From Cyclobacterium sp. SYSU L10401 (GTDB taxonomy: Bacteria; Bacteroidota; Bacteroidia; Cytophagales; Cyclobacteriaceae), in the NCBI RefSeq assembly GCF_010993705.1, contig NZ_WOFO01000014.1:1-64000 (forward strand): 64,000 nucleotides of DNA. Reading direction: 5' to 3'. This document shows positions 12,792-16,991 of this stretch, piece after piece. Within the stretch, counting starts at the first letter, position 1, and the number at the start of each line of letters is the position of its first letter. The position numbers and the translations under genes are program-made. Under the pieces are notes generated by a model. The model was not told where the DNA came from, made no database searches, and saw only the letters and a list, made by a program, of their open reading frames with translations.

Positions 12792-14684
12792 ATGACCGTC
12801 ACAAAAAAATTCATCATTGATTTTGACAGTACTTTTACAAAGGTTGAGGCCCTGGATATTTTAGGTGAAATAAGCCTGAAGGATGACCCTGAAAAAGCAA
12901 AAAAACTCCAGGCAATCAAGGACATCACCGATCAGGGAATGGAAGGCAAGCTGACATTCAGGGAAAGCCTTGTCCAGCGGCTGGATATACTCGATGCCAA
13001 CAAAGAACAGATTTCCGAACTGATAGCTGCCCTCAGAAAAAAAGTTTCCGATTCGTTTCAACGCAACAAAGAATTTTTGAAAGAAAATGCATCGGATATA
13101 TTTATTATTTCCAATGGATTCAAGGATTTTGTAGCGCCGATTGTAACGGAATACGGGATTAAACCTGAGAATGTATTTGCCAATGAATTTGAGTATGCAG
13201 ACTCTGGTAAAATCATCGGTTTCAACAAGGATAACCCACTTTCCAAGAATAATGGAAAACCTGAGACCATCCGAAAGCTGAATCTGGAAGGAGATATCTA
13301 TGTGATCGGAGACGGCTATACCGATTATGAAATTAAAGCTTCAGGGGTGGCCAATAAATTTTATGCGTTTACTGAAAATGTACACCGAACCAACGTTTCA
13401 TCCAAAGCAGACCATATTGCCCCCAGCCTGGACGAAATATTATATGTGAATAAAATGAATAAAAAATTTTCCTATCCAAAGAGCCGGATCAGTGTCTTGC
13501 TCCTGGAAAATGTGCACCCTATTGGCGTTGAGCTGATGAAGGAAGAAGGATACCAGGTAGAGGTCATCAGTTCTGCCTTATCTGAGGAAGAGCTGGCCGA
13601 AAAAATCAAAAAAGTATCCATCCTGGGCATAAGGTCAAAAACCCAGGTCACTAAAAAAGTCCTGGAAAATGCCAATCGCCTGGTAGCCATTGGGGCCTTT
13701 TGTATCGGCACCAATCAAATTGACCTGGAAACCTGCCAGGAAAAAGGCATCGCCGTATTCAATGCCCCTTTTAGCAATACCCGATCAGTGGTAGAACTGG
13801 CGATAGCTGAAATCATCTTTTTAATGCGCAGGCTGACGGACAAGACCAGCAGCATGCATCAGGGCGTTTGGGACAAAAGTGCATCGGGAAGTTTTGAAAT
13901 CAGGGGCAAAAAACTCGGGATCATCGGCTATGGAAACATAGGTTCTCAACTTTCTGTTTTGGCAGAAAGCATGGGGCTGGATGTATACTATTACGATGTC
14001 ATAGAAAGATTGGCTCTGGGAAATGCCACCAAGATCGATTCACTCGATGAATTGCTCAGCACCTGTGATGTAATTACCTTACATGTGGACGGGAGAAAGG
14101 AAAATGAGATGCTGATCGACCAGGAGAAGCTGGCTTTGATGAAAAAAGGGGCTTACCTGATCAATCTGAGCCGGGGCCATGTGGTGGATGTACCAGCCTT
14201 GCGGAATGCTTTGGAAAGCGGTCACCTGGCAGGTGCCAGCATTGATGTATTTCCAAGTGAACCAAAAAACAATTCTGAACCCTTCGTTTCAGAACTGATT
14301 GGCTTGCCCAATACCATTCTGACACCACATATTGGGGGCAGCACCTTAGAAGCCCAGCAGAACATCGCCAGGTTTGTTCCTGGAAAAATCATCGAATACA
14401 TCAATACCGGAAACACATATAATAGTGTCAACTTTCCCAATATACAGTTGCCATTTCTACAGGATGCCCACCGGCTGATCCACATTCACCTCAACGAACC
14501 AGGGATCATGGCCAGAATCAATAAGGTATTGGCAGATTATGAAATCAACATCGTGGGTCAATACCTGAAGACCAATGAAAAAATAGGTTATGTCATCACC
14601 GATATTGACAAAGCCTACAGTAGTAAGGTAATCGACGAACTGAAGGCCATTAACGGTACCATACGTTTCAGGGTTTTGTACTGA
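12792..14684 (+). CDS. serA: fused phosphoserine phosphatase-like / D-3-phosphoglycerate dehydrogenase
   Basis: The 630-residue protein joins two enzymes of serine synthesis. Residues 1-210 are a HAD phosphatase domain of the SerB type: IIDFDSTFTK (nucleophile D10, acid D12) and VIGDGYTDYE as the metal-binding motif. Residues 230-550 are a D-isomer-specific dehydrogenase with the dinucleotide motif GIIGYGNIGSQ and catalytic Arg (NLSRGHVVD), Glu (DVFPSEP) and His (TPHIGGST). The last 75 residues form an ACT domain (HIHLNEPGIMARIN), probably binding serine for feedback control. The protein could catalyse the first and third steps of the pathway; the second (SerC) is not in the window. A strong terminator follows, so it is likely transcribed alone. 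Confidence 0.88.
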   Translation: MTVTKKFIIDFDSTFTKVEALDILGEISLKDDPEKAKKLQAIKDITDQGMEGKLTFRESLVQRLDILDANKEQISELIAALRKKVSDSFQRNKEFLKENASDIFIISNGFKDFVAPIVTEYGIKPENVFANEFEYADSGKIIGFNKDNPLSKNNGKPETIRKLNLEGDIYVIGDGYTDYEIKASGVANKFYAFTENVHRTNVSSKADHIAPSLDEILYVNKMNKKFSYPKSRISVLLLENVHPIGVELMKEEGYQVEVISSALSEEELAEKIKKVSILGIRSKTQVTKKVLENANRLVAIGAFCIGTNQIDLETCQEKGIAVFNAPFSNTRSVVELAIAEIIFLMRRLTDKTSSMHQGVWDKSASGSFEIRGKKLGIIGYGNIGSQLSVLAESMGLDVYYYDVIERLALGNATKIDSLDELLSTCDVITLHVDGRKENEMLIDQEKLALMKKGAYLINLSRGHVVDVPALRNALESGHLAGASIDVFPSEPKNNSEPFVSELIGLPNTILTPHIGGSTLEAQQNIARFVPGKIIEYINTGNTYNSVNFPNIQLPFLQDAHRLIHIHLNEPGIMARINKVLADYEINIVGQYLKTNEKIGYVITDIDKAYSSKVIDELKAINGTIRFRVLY

Positions 14685-14734: not shown

Positions 14735-14833
14735 GTGGTTTTTTGTGATTATTCTTCTATTTTTATGGAAACAAGTGTGTCTCAAAATTCACTTCAGTGA
14801 AGGATATTGGCAAACCACCAAACCCAGGAACCA

Positions 14834-15277
14834 ATGAAAGCATTTTTTAAATCTTTATTTGCTTATGGGCATGAGAGCAACCAAAGACTATGGGAAGCGA
14901 TGATGGAACACCAGGATAAAACCCCTGAGAAATCCATCCAACTGTATAACCATATCCTCAATGCCCATCAAATCTGGAACAACCGGATTGACCCTAAAGC
15001 TGCTCCTTTTGGGGTATGGGCGATGCGGCCGATTCAGGATGAAAGGGTGATTGATCTTGAAAATCATGCCCATACAATTAACATATTGGATAATTACCCC
15101 CTGGAAGCCATCATTTCATACAGCAATTCAAAGGGCCAGGTTTATACCAACAGCGTAAGGGACATCCTTTTTCACCTTGTCAACCATTCCACGTATCACC
15201 GCGGACAGATTGCCTCAGACTTCCGGCAGAATGGCCTGGAACCTCTGGTTTCCGATTACATCCTGTTTAAAAGGTAG
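14834..15277 (+). CDS. DinB-family protein
   Basis: The 147-residue protein from ATG 14834 (an in-frame TTG at 14807 would add nine residues) is a four-helix bundle of the DinB/YfiT type. The C-terminal helix LFHLVNHSTYHRGQI supplies two of the usual three metal-ligand histidines; a third (NHILNAHQIW) lies near residue 48. Family members bind a divalent metal and include thiol transferases and stress proteins, but most, as here, have no assigned reaction. It stands alone between two terminator-like elements. Confidence 0.8.
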   Translation: MKAFFKSLFAYGHESNQRLWEAMMEHQDKTPEKSIQLYNHILNAHQIWNNRIDPKAAPFGVWAMRPIQDERVIDLENHAHTINILDNYPLEAIISYSNSKGQVYTNSVRDILFHLVNHSTYHRGQIASDFRQNGLEPLVSDYILFKR

Positions 15278-15579
15278 TAGAAGGATTGATAATTTTTTTG
15301 GGCAATAGGACAGATTTTAATAAAGCCTATTGACCCAGAGCATCCGAAAGACCATGCTTTGGTTATTCCTTCAAGACCTTTTTCATTCTCAATTTTACTT
15401 ATGGGCCCCTGAGCTACAACGGACTTTATGGGATTCTCAAAAAACTAACGGCCGCTGTCTAAACATAACATTATCCACCATTTTAAAGATGCTGGATAGT
15501 TGGCATGGGCTTACTTATCGTCTTGCATCCCCAAACTAAAGCTGCAGAGGCAATAGCATGCCTTTTTACTCCCCCCTAA
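15278..15579. other. 302-bp stretch between DinB and the RNA gene, no gene recognised
   Basis: Only a 69-codon plus-strand frame (15330-15539) is open here. It has no recognisable domain, no hydrophobic pattern and skewed composition, so it is not called. No terminator hairpin follows the DinB stop. Confidence 0.5.
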
Positions 15580-15615
15580 AACACCAAAAGGGAGGCCGCC
15601 AGGCGGTCTCCCTTT
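15580..15615 (-). terminator. terminator of the candidate RNA gene
   Basis: AAAGGGAGGCCG (15587-15598) pairs with CGGTCTCCCTTT (15604-15615) over 12 bp with one G-U pair and a 5-base loop. On the minus strand it is followed by TTTTGGTGTTTT; on the plus strand there is no T run, so it works for minus-strand transcripts. Confidence 0.75.
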
Positions 15616-15820
15616 AACAGGGTCCGGATCATGGAGTGTTACAAACCTCCGATATGACAGGATTTGAGCTGCACCATCTCCGCAACCTTCCACTGTTAAC
15701 CTGCATCCTAAAAGGATACGAGGTCTTTCCAAAGGAAAGATGAGGCCTGGTTTTGAAGCGATGCTTCACTCGGCATTTTAATCAACTTGTGAAGTTTGAA
15801 CATGTCGCTGACCCGAACCT
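15580..15820 (-). ncRNA. candidate structured non-coding RNA of about 240 nt, unknown class
   Basis: The minus strand carries a complete transcription unit: a -33/-7 promoter (15826-15857), a body and a terminator (15587-15615). The two ends of the body pair: 15809-15819 with 15621-15631 form 11 bp including two G-U pairs, and just inside 15791-15798 pairs with 15642-15649 (8 bp, one G-U). Within these lie consecutive hairpins TGAAGC/GCTTCA (15754-15768), TCTTTCC/GGAAAGA (15724-15740) and GCATCCT/AGGATAC (15703-15719, extended by ACCT/AGGT), each with a 3-base loop. Weaker pairing is possible in 15650-15697. No coding frame longer than 31 codons is present. It does not match the consensus of tmRNA, RNase P, SRP RNA, 6S RNA or the common riboswitches that I can check by eye. 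Confidence 0.65.
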
Positions 15821-15825
15821 TAATT

Positions 15826-15857
15826 CAAATATACAATCTATTCCAGCAAACCTCAAA
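15826..15857 (-). promoter_or_regulatory. promoter of the candidate RNA gene (TTTG-N20-TATATTTG)
   Basis: On the minus strand TTTG (15857-15854) is followed after 20 bp by TATATTTG (15833-15826), matching the Bacteroidota -33 TTTG and -7 TAnnTTTG boxes with normal spacing. The predicted start is near 15820, immediately before the first base of the closing stem. Confidence 0.7.
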
Positions 15858-16067: not shown

Positions 16068-16991
16068 ATGTATCAAATCAAAAAGATCATTGTTTGTCTG
16101 GATCAGAGCGATATGGACGAAACTCTGGTGAAATTTGCCGCATTTATAGCAAAGACCAACCAATCTAAAAAAATTTACTTCACAAATGTAATTCGCAACC
16201 TTTCCATACCTAAGGATATTCTGGCTGAATTCCCAAACCTTATCAGCAATATGGTGAAAGAAAGGGAAAATCAGATGAAAAAAGTTGTTGCCGAAAACTT
16301 TGATCCCAATATTAAAGTCAGTAGCTCCTATATAGTAAAGGAGGGGCAACTCTCAAAAAAAATATTGAAACTGGCCAATGAAAAATCTGCTGATCTGATT
16401 TTGGTAGGAAGAAAAACCAGCTTGCCCGGTTCCGGGGTGGTTTCTCAACGGCTAGCCAGAAGGGCATCGTGTTCCCTGCTGATTGTACCTGAAAACAGCC
16501 AGCCTAAAGTAAAAAAACTATTGGTTCCAAGTGACTTTTCTGATTATTCCAAGGATGCACTGGAGGAGGCCATAGAGATCGCTGAAAAAAATGAGGGGAA
16601 ATCTGAAATCTTTTGCCAAAATGTATATGCGGTTCCATCAGGGTACCATTTTACGGGCAAATCTTATGAAGAATTTAGTGAAATCATGCTCCAAAACGCC
16701 ACCATCAATTATAAGAAGTTTATCCGGAAAATAGACACCAAATCCAGCAAGATCAAACCCCTTTATACCAAGGACGAAGACGATGATCCTGTGGTAGATA
16801 TCATCAGCAAGGCCGGGGAGATCAAGGCCGATATGATCATTATAGGTGCCAAGGGAAGGACGGCAGCTACAGCACTTTTTATCGGTAGCATGGCAGAACG
16901 GCTGATACAAATGAATGATAAAGTACCCTTATTGGTAACCCGACCAAAGGGCAAAAATGCTGGTATCATAGAGTACATTCTTGAAATTTAA
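16068..16991 (+). CDS. universal stress protein with two tandem UspA domains
   Basis: The 307-residue cytoplasmic protein has two UspA folds, about residues 1-145 and 148-295. The second keeps the ATP-binding pattern G-2x-G-9x-GS (GAKGRTAATALFIGS); in the first the corresponding GRKTSLPGSG region is partly degenerate. Tandem Usp proteins bind ATP or AMP and respond to stress or energy limitation; the partner is unknown here. The gene is divergent from the RNA gene, with about 250 bp of AT-rich DNA between, and it is likely monocistronic. The start ATG at 16068 gives MYQIKKIIVCLDQS, the usual first strand. Confidence 0.9.
   Translation: MYQIKKIIVCLDQSDMDETLVKFAAFIAKTNQSKKIYFTNVIRNLSIPKDILAEFPNLISNMVKERENQMKKVVAENFDPNIKVSSSYIVKEGQLSKKILKLANEKSADLILVGRKTSLPGSGVVSQRLARRASCSLLIVPENSQPKVKKLLVPSDFSDYSKDALEEAIEIAEKNEGKSEIFCQNVYAVPSGYHFTGKSYEEFSEIMLQNATINYKKFIRKIDTKSSKIKPLYTKDEDDDPVVDIISKAGEIKADMIIIGAKGRTAATALFIGSMAERLIQMNDKVPLLVTRPKGKNAGIIEYILEI

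Follow-up and report, generated by a model that had tools for sequence, protein, structure and literature searches.

Genomic context of the candidate RNA gene

According to the open reading frames listed for the 64-kb window, by which we mean the whole stretch of Cyclobacterium DNA analyzed, and for 73 homologous loci, the candidate RNA gene is intergenic and lies on the minus strand. Its neighbors in the window are:

16068-16991, divergent from the RNA gene: universal stress protein gene (usp), the upstream neighbor
14807-15277, convergent with the RNA gene: DinB-like gene
12792-14684, plus strand, convergent with the RNA gene: serA-like gene

The product of the serA-like gene (12792-14684, plus strand) combines a HAD phosphatase domain (residues 8-179) with a phosphoglycerate-dehydrogenase-type domain and an ACT domain, and is possibly a serB-serA fusion.

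The neighbor count covers 73 of 98 model matches; the other 25, mostly close relatives and including L093, in which the match is cut off, were thinned by hand once the scores were known. Among the 73 loci, usp lies upstream on the opposite strand in 42 and serA lies downstream in convergent orientation in 24. All nine of the window genes looked for are missing at 19 loci, many loci being too short to cover both flanks. For the analyses of the closing stem, the alternative hairpin, the promoter and the reading frames, L071 and L088 were dropped, leaving a set of 71 homologs.

Fold and parts of the RNA

The minimum free energy (MFE) of the 251-nt stretch is -89.8 kcal/mol, as compared with -70.38 +/- 4.87 kcal/mol for dinucleotide shuffles (z = -3.99), and none of 200 shuffles was as low. 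Together with the homologs, the fold delimits the following parts:

15854-15857, minus strand: -33-like element TTTG, read from the sequence
15826-15833, minus strand: -7-like element TATATTTG, after a 20-nt spacer following TTTG
15621-15819, minus strand: RNA body from closing stem to closing stem (fold and homologs)
15809-15819, minus strand: 5' strand of the closing stem P1, paired with 15621-15631 (MFE fold)
15621-15631, minus strand: 3' strand of P1 (MFE fold)
15792-15797, minus strand: 5' strand of the inner stem P2, paired with 15643-15648 (covariation)
15772-15791, minus strand: 5' side of the central bubble, predicted pRNA template (conserved positions and aligned motifs; putative function)
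15755-15771, minus strand: 5' strand of the apical arm, in which GAGU, GCA and UUC pair with 15666-15681 (covariation)
15742-15754, minus strand: conserved AAAACCAGGCCUC, with AACC/GGUU and CC.C/G.GG pairing to 15684-15693
15724-15740, minus strand: first variable hairpin at the apical three-way junction (compensatory changes)
15700-15723, minus strand: second variable hairpin at the apical three-way junction (compensatory changes)
15683-15697, minus strand: conserved AACAGUGGAAGGUUG, forming the junction's 3' side (conservation)
15649-15670, minus strand: 3' side of the central bubble and its flank, with motif AGCUCAAAUCCUGUC, largely common to RF01693 and RF01685
15633-15650, minus strand: alternative 3' hairpin GGAGGUUUGUAACACUCC, which excludes P2 (constrained fold, weak statistics)
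15578-15615, minus strand: terminator-like hairpin (12 pairs, 15615-15587, in the MFE fold) and interrupted T tract

The general plan is thus that of an RNA of about 200 nt with a closing stem, a central bubble and an apical arm. A preliminary description, made from the DNA letters and a list of open reading frames, had reported that an 11-bp stem joins the two ends (15819-15809 with 15631-15621), using G-U pairs and no mismatch, and that a second stem lies just inside; both are borne out, the first as P1, which has exactly these properties in the MFE fold, and the second as P2 (15797-15792 with 15648-15643).

Promoter and 3' end

On the minus strand, TTTG (15857-15854), a 20-nt spacer and TATATTTG (15833-15826) stand where the preliminary description had placed a promoter, and the arrangement of TTTG and TATATTTG is one that we take to be of the Bacteroidota type. 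In 54 of the 71 homologs, as compared with 4.4% of shuffles, the motif TANNTTTG lies within the 60 nt preceding the core, and in 42 of these 54 its distance from the core is 25-30 nt. As TTG is found at the matching distance in only 16 of the 54 homologs having a -7 element (an uncontrolled count), conservation of the -33 element is far poorer than that of the -7 element. A scan for E. coli-type promoters was uninformative, since it returned four sites where 2.6 were expected. The transcript probably starts near 15819-15821.

The proposed terminator held up in part. Its 12-pair hairpin (15615-15587) is present in the MFE fold, but the T tract that follows is interrupted (TTTTGGTGTTTT), and a simple terminator scan returned no sites, this hairpin included. 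In 42 of the 71 homologs (an uncontrolled count) a T-rich tail, with at least 7 T in 12 positions, directly follows the paired ends, as for example in L160, L141 and L104, where the closing stem passes immediately into the tail. The closing stem itself may therefore terminate transcription there, and may double as the terminator in the tailed homologs, the Cyclobacterium gene having a separate hairpin instead.

Covariation and conservation

Homologs were aligned with MAFFT over the core (15797-15643) using 27 of 30 loci, L003, L008 and L012 being omitted as near-identical. The 36-pair structure examined, which leans towards its own sequences because it was drawn from the window sequence guided by an RNAalifold consensus of the same loci (44 pairs, 34 with double changes), was formed in 91.1% of cells, as against 82.0% when shuffled. 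Double changes were seen at 23 of the 36 pairs (13.1 +/- 1.9 when shuffled) and the covariation score was 0.290 (0.152 when shuffled), neither value being reached in any of 500 shuffles. Pairing fell to 53.8% or 40.7% when the partners were offset by a single position. In an alignment of 98 sequences, made on the model itself and so again leaning to the structure, 33 of the 36 pairs showed double changes, with a score of 0.460 versus 0.177. Compensatory changes, for which the preliminary description had suggested a search, are thus present in both alignments.

The closing stem, which lies outside the model, was stronger than 95% of pooled shuffles in all 71 homologs, and the ends of each RNA pair with one another at a mean of -23.5 kcal/mol, as compared with -13.8 kcal/mol for ends swapped between genomes. 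As the unit has homologs, covaries, and conserves both its closing stem and its -7 element, it is more than a chance fold.

Of three consecutive hairpins described previously, two (15740-15724 and 15723-15700) covary and are retained. The third, GAAGC-AUC-GCUUC (15767-15755), was rejected: in the homologs it pairs in 69.2% of cells versus 68.0% when shuffled, with 99 of 500 shuffles as high in pairing and 55 of 500 as high in covariation. The consensus fold instead pairs these bases partly to the 3' half.

Matches to known RNA families at the locus

At curated thresholds, Rfam gave no match in the 64-kb window, and ARAGORN found no tRNA or tmRNA in it; tmRNA, RNase P RNA and SRP RNA were rejected on these grounds. 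When 401 bases were scanned with Rfam at permissive settings, five matches were returned, of which the first two extend across the RNA on its own strand: RF01693, with 24.5 bits (E = 0.034; gathering threshold 60), and RF01685, with 22.4 bits (E = 0.78; gathering threshold 85), both below threshold. Over the 5.9-Mb genome of the same organism, the locus ranks first of nine RF01693 matches (E = 0.118), the next scoring 19.1 bits, and is the sole RF01685 match (E = 2.71). RF00013 has no match at the locus in this genome, its one match of 12.8 bits lying elsewhere (threshold 46.4). Taken alone the RF01693 and RF01685 scores are weak, since both models also match control genomes at E <= 10 (9 of 14 and 4 of 14, respectively), archaea included.

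A model from the same family recovers known 6S RNAs

To a covariance model (R1) built from 27 sequences of the same family, no Rfam 6S sequence contributed. R1 was searched against 296 genomes of the phylum and 194 of the order, and a second model, R2, against genomes of the family and the order. R1 matched 33 of the 296 phylum genomes, eight belonging to the family (the genome under study included) and 25 lying outside the order. From the latter, 22 matches were fetched as loci (L071-L092). Three of the fetched loci score above the Rfam gathering score: L072 (184.4 bits) and L080 (166.6 bits) for RF01693, and L076 (86.3 bits) for RF01685. RF01685 matches 17 further loci below its threshold (E = 0.0021 or better), two of which also match RF01693. 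At 20 of the 22 fetched loci, the R1 match overlaps a match of RF01693 or RF01685 and has the same orientation. The other two, L071 and L088, are R1 matches outside the class and have no Rfam support. R1, made without any Rfam 6S input, thus recovers 6S families already known from Bacteroidota at 20 of the 22 loci, through which the Cyclobacterium RNA is homologous to these families.

Among the motifs that align are AAACUCAaCA or AAACUCAUCA, GCC.C...GGA, CUCAAA.C.UGU (UUCAAA in L079) and GAGUUU; CCGAG aligns as well, and is absent in the 6S-Flavo locus L076. The preliminary description had regarded the RNA as undescribed, its branched form and motifs not fitting 6S RNA. This view has to be abandoned: in both its motifs and its architecture the RNA conforms to the 6S families known from Bacteroidota.

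Distribution

A DNA search gave matches in 32 of 59 genomes, including all 12 of the genus (the genome under study among them), at a single place per genome except for G021, which has two neighboring pieces. R2 found one match each in 179 of 196 family genomes; in the sample of 194 order genomes, R2 matched 32 and R1 matched 31. Of the 17 family genomes without an R2 match, 12 fall in three genera (five each in g260 and g266, two in g6) and five are single genomes; the gene may truly have been lost in them, may have diverged strongly, or may lie in assembly gaps. When R2 was repeated on these 17 at greater sensitivity, two faint matches appeared (L212, 22.1 bits; L213, 20.4 bits). We take both as chance matches rather than 6S RNAs, as 6S motifs were not seen in them and they look protein-coding.

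The intergenic position, the -7 element in 54 of 71 homologs and the presence of a single match apiece in 179 of the 196 family genomes characterize a free-standing gene with its own promoter. On this point the preliminary description, which had proposed a standalone housekeeping or regulatory RNA that Rfam does not recognize at threshold, is supported.

Comparison with known 6S RNAs

RF01693 (Bacteroidales-1, for which the name 6S-Bacteroidales has been suggested) is presumably the family to which Bacteroides 6S RNA belongs. Its 5' bubble begins with AAACUCAUCA, that of the Cyclobacterium RNA with AAACUUCACA, and the two have CCGAG, GGCC.CA...GUGGA, CUCAAAUCnUGUC and GGAGUUU (in Cyclobacterium GGAGGUUU) in common. 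In our own reading of its structure line, the RF01693 model (179 positions) also shows signs of a multiloop in the apical arm, like that of the Cyclobacterium RNA, and a branched arm, which the preliminary description had counted against 6S RNA, ceases to be an objection. The junction hairpins are longer in the Cyclobacterium RNA than at the RF01693-type loci L072 and L080.

RF01685 (6S-Flavo) resembles the Cyclobacterium RNA in its bubble motifs, such as AAACUCAACA and CUCAAAaCUUGUC in L076, in the GAGUUU of the 3' strand and in having an apical arm, but this arm is shorter and no multiloop is visible in the displayed portion of its structure line (108 positions). Both families were described by Weinberg 2010 (PMC2864571).

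The E. coli and B. subtilis type (RF00013) likewise has a closing stem, a central bubble and an apical arm; unlike it, the Cyclobacterium RNA has a branched apical arm, and the RF00013 model does not match at the locus. A possible 3'-strand hairpin may be a further likeness to E. coli 6S RNA, as the latter is outlined in PMC8876501.

A proposed mechanism of action

According to the same source, 6S RNA is a rod with a central bubble that mimics an open promoter; pRNA synthesis unwinds P2 and frees the polymerase, and in E. coli the freed 3' strand forms a hairpin, B. subtilis 6S-1 RNA being different in this respect (PMC8876501). Two further studies report a 6S RNA and two classes of pRNA found by dRNA-seq in Bacteroides thetaiotaomicron (PMC7366714) and the detection, in Flavobacterium psychrophilum, of known RNAs that include 6S RNA (PMC9723704).

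By analogy, the Bacteroidota-type promoter would drive an RNA of about 200-240 nt, which would fold into the closing stem P1/P2, the central bubble and a long apical arm with a three-way junction at its tip. As growth slows, this RNA would mimic an open promoter and occupy the holoenzyme of RNA polymerase with the housekeeping sigma factor. Once nucleotides are available again, the polymerase would start a short pRNA on the 5' bubble strand and run into P2; P2 would unwind, the freed 3' strand would form its own hairpin, and the polymerase would be released. Polymerase binding is suggested by homology to 6S RNA, and pRNA synthesis and a growth-phase role are predicted for the Cyclobacterium RNA on the same analogy.

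The putative release step is drawn from constrained folding. With a block of 18 or 22 nt on the 5' bubble/P2 strand, the 3' strand refolded into GGAGGUUUGUAACACUCC (15650-15633), while blocking 14 nt did not produce this hairpin, the end point of the block being assumed in each case. The GGAGGUUUGUAACACUCC region was more stable than the shuffle mean in 67 of 71 homologs but fell below the 5% quantile in only six of the 71; at the RF01693-type loci L072 and L080 the alternative hairpin was not seen. The modeled refolding would fit a release step of the E. coli kind.

Identity of the RNA and alternative explanations

We regard the unit as the single 6S RNA gene of the Cyclobacterium genome, with a promoter-mimic role by analogy to other 6S RNAs, and assign this reading a probability of about 0.93. 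It is very probably a version of 6S RNA that has diverged too far for the Rfam thresholds, and not a new kind of RNA.

A 6S-related RNA might instead act differently, by binding core polymerase without sigma or by binding a protein at the conserved three-way junction. Over 27 sequences, the junction strands (core 45-57 and 101-115) are indeed more conserved than the bubble (core 7-26 and 133-149), with 19 of 28 versus 10 of 37 positions invariant, and simple promoter mimicry needs no such conservation. Ms1 RNA of Actinobacteria, likened here by description, offers a precedent, having a 6S-like structure but binding core polymerase (PMC9130861). We nevertheless consider a different action unlikely, given that the bubble motifs are common to RF01693 RNA, that conservation extends to the closing stem, P2 and the apical arm, and that pRNAs are reported for Bacteroides 6S RNA (PMC7366714).

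Still less probable, to a degree that leaves it little room, is an unrelated and undescribed structured RNA whose likeness to the 6S families is accidental. Such an RNA would be expected to stay below every Rfam threshold and to lack an RF00013 match, as this locus does, and the weak RF01693 and RF01685 matches in control genomes would fit it too. It is largely contradicted by the overlap of R1 with these two families in 20 of 22 loci outside the order, and by the fact that the top match of each family in the organism's own genome is this locus.

That the unit is a cis-regulatory leader, a 3' untranslated element or a small coding gene can be dismissed as extremely improbable: a 73-residue open reading frame with a TTG start overlaps it (15511-15732, minus strand), but the neighbors are divergent (usp) or convergent (DinB-like, serA), so that a leader of a downstream gene was rejected, and a coding gene was rejected because no frame is conserved across the 71 homologs, of which 61 are interrupted by stops in every frame on the RNA's strand and 10 have a stop-free frame, their core lengths spreading over all residues modulo 3 (24, 19 and 28). 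The conserved coding frame that would have spoken against the preliminary description was accordingly not found.

Within the preferred reading of the unit as a 6S RNA, we tentatively raise a further idea, to which we give clearly less than even odds: the near-invariant junction strands AAAACCAGGCCUCA and AACAGUGGAAGGUUG may form a phylum-specific module of Bacteroidota 6S RNA that contacts sigma, another protein or some portion of the polymerase peculiar to Bacteroidota. If this were true, regulation would extend past promoter mimicry.

Among the titles and abstract openings listed, no description of a Cytophagales 6S RNA was found; the survey by Wehner et al. 2014 (RNA Biol 11:1468) may already list one. 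As none of 20 related loci of the order (the Cyclobacterium locus included) reaches an Rfam gathering score, annotation at Rfam thresholds is expected to miss this global regulator. R1 joins RF01693, RF01685 and the Cytophagales sequences into one Bacteroidota 6S group, and the RNA provides a testable case of a 6S RNA fit to a sigma factor that uses TTTG/TAnnTTTG, not the E. coli promoter.

Two minor observations concern the 6S-Flavo loci. Thirteen loci among L074-L092, all from one family, score 74.0-84.1 bits with RF01685. These values fall just short of the gathering score, 85, and suggest a threshold on the high side. In L085, a Flavo-1 RNA (RF01705, 69.5 bits) lies at 2443-2520, about 0.8 kb from the 6S-Flavo match.
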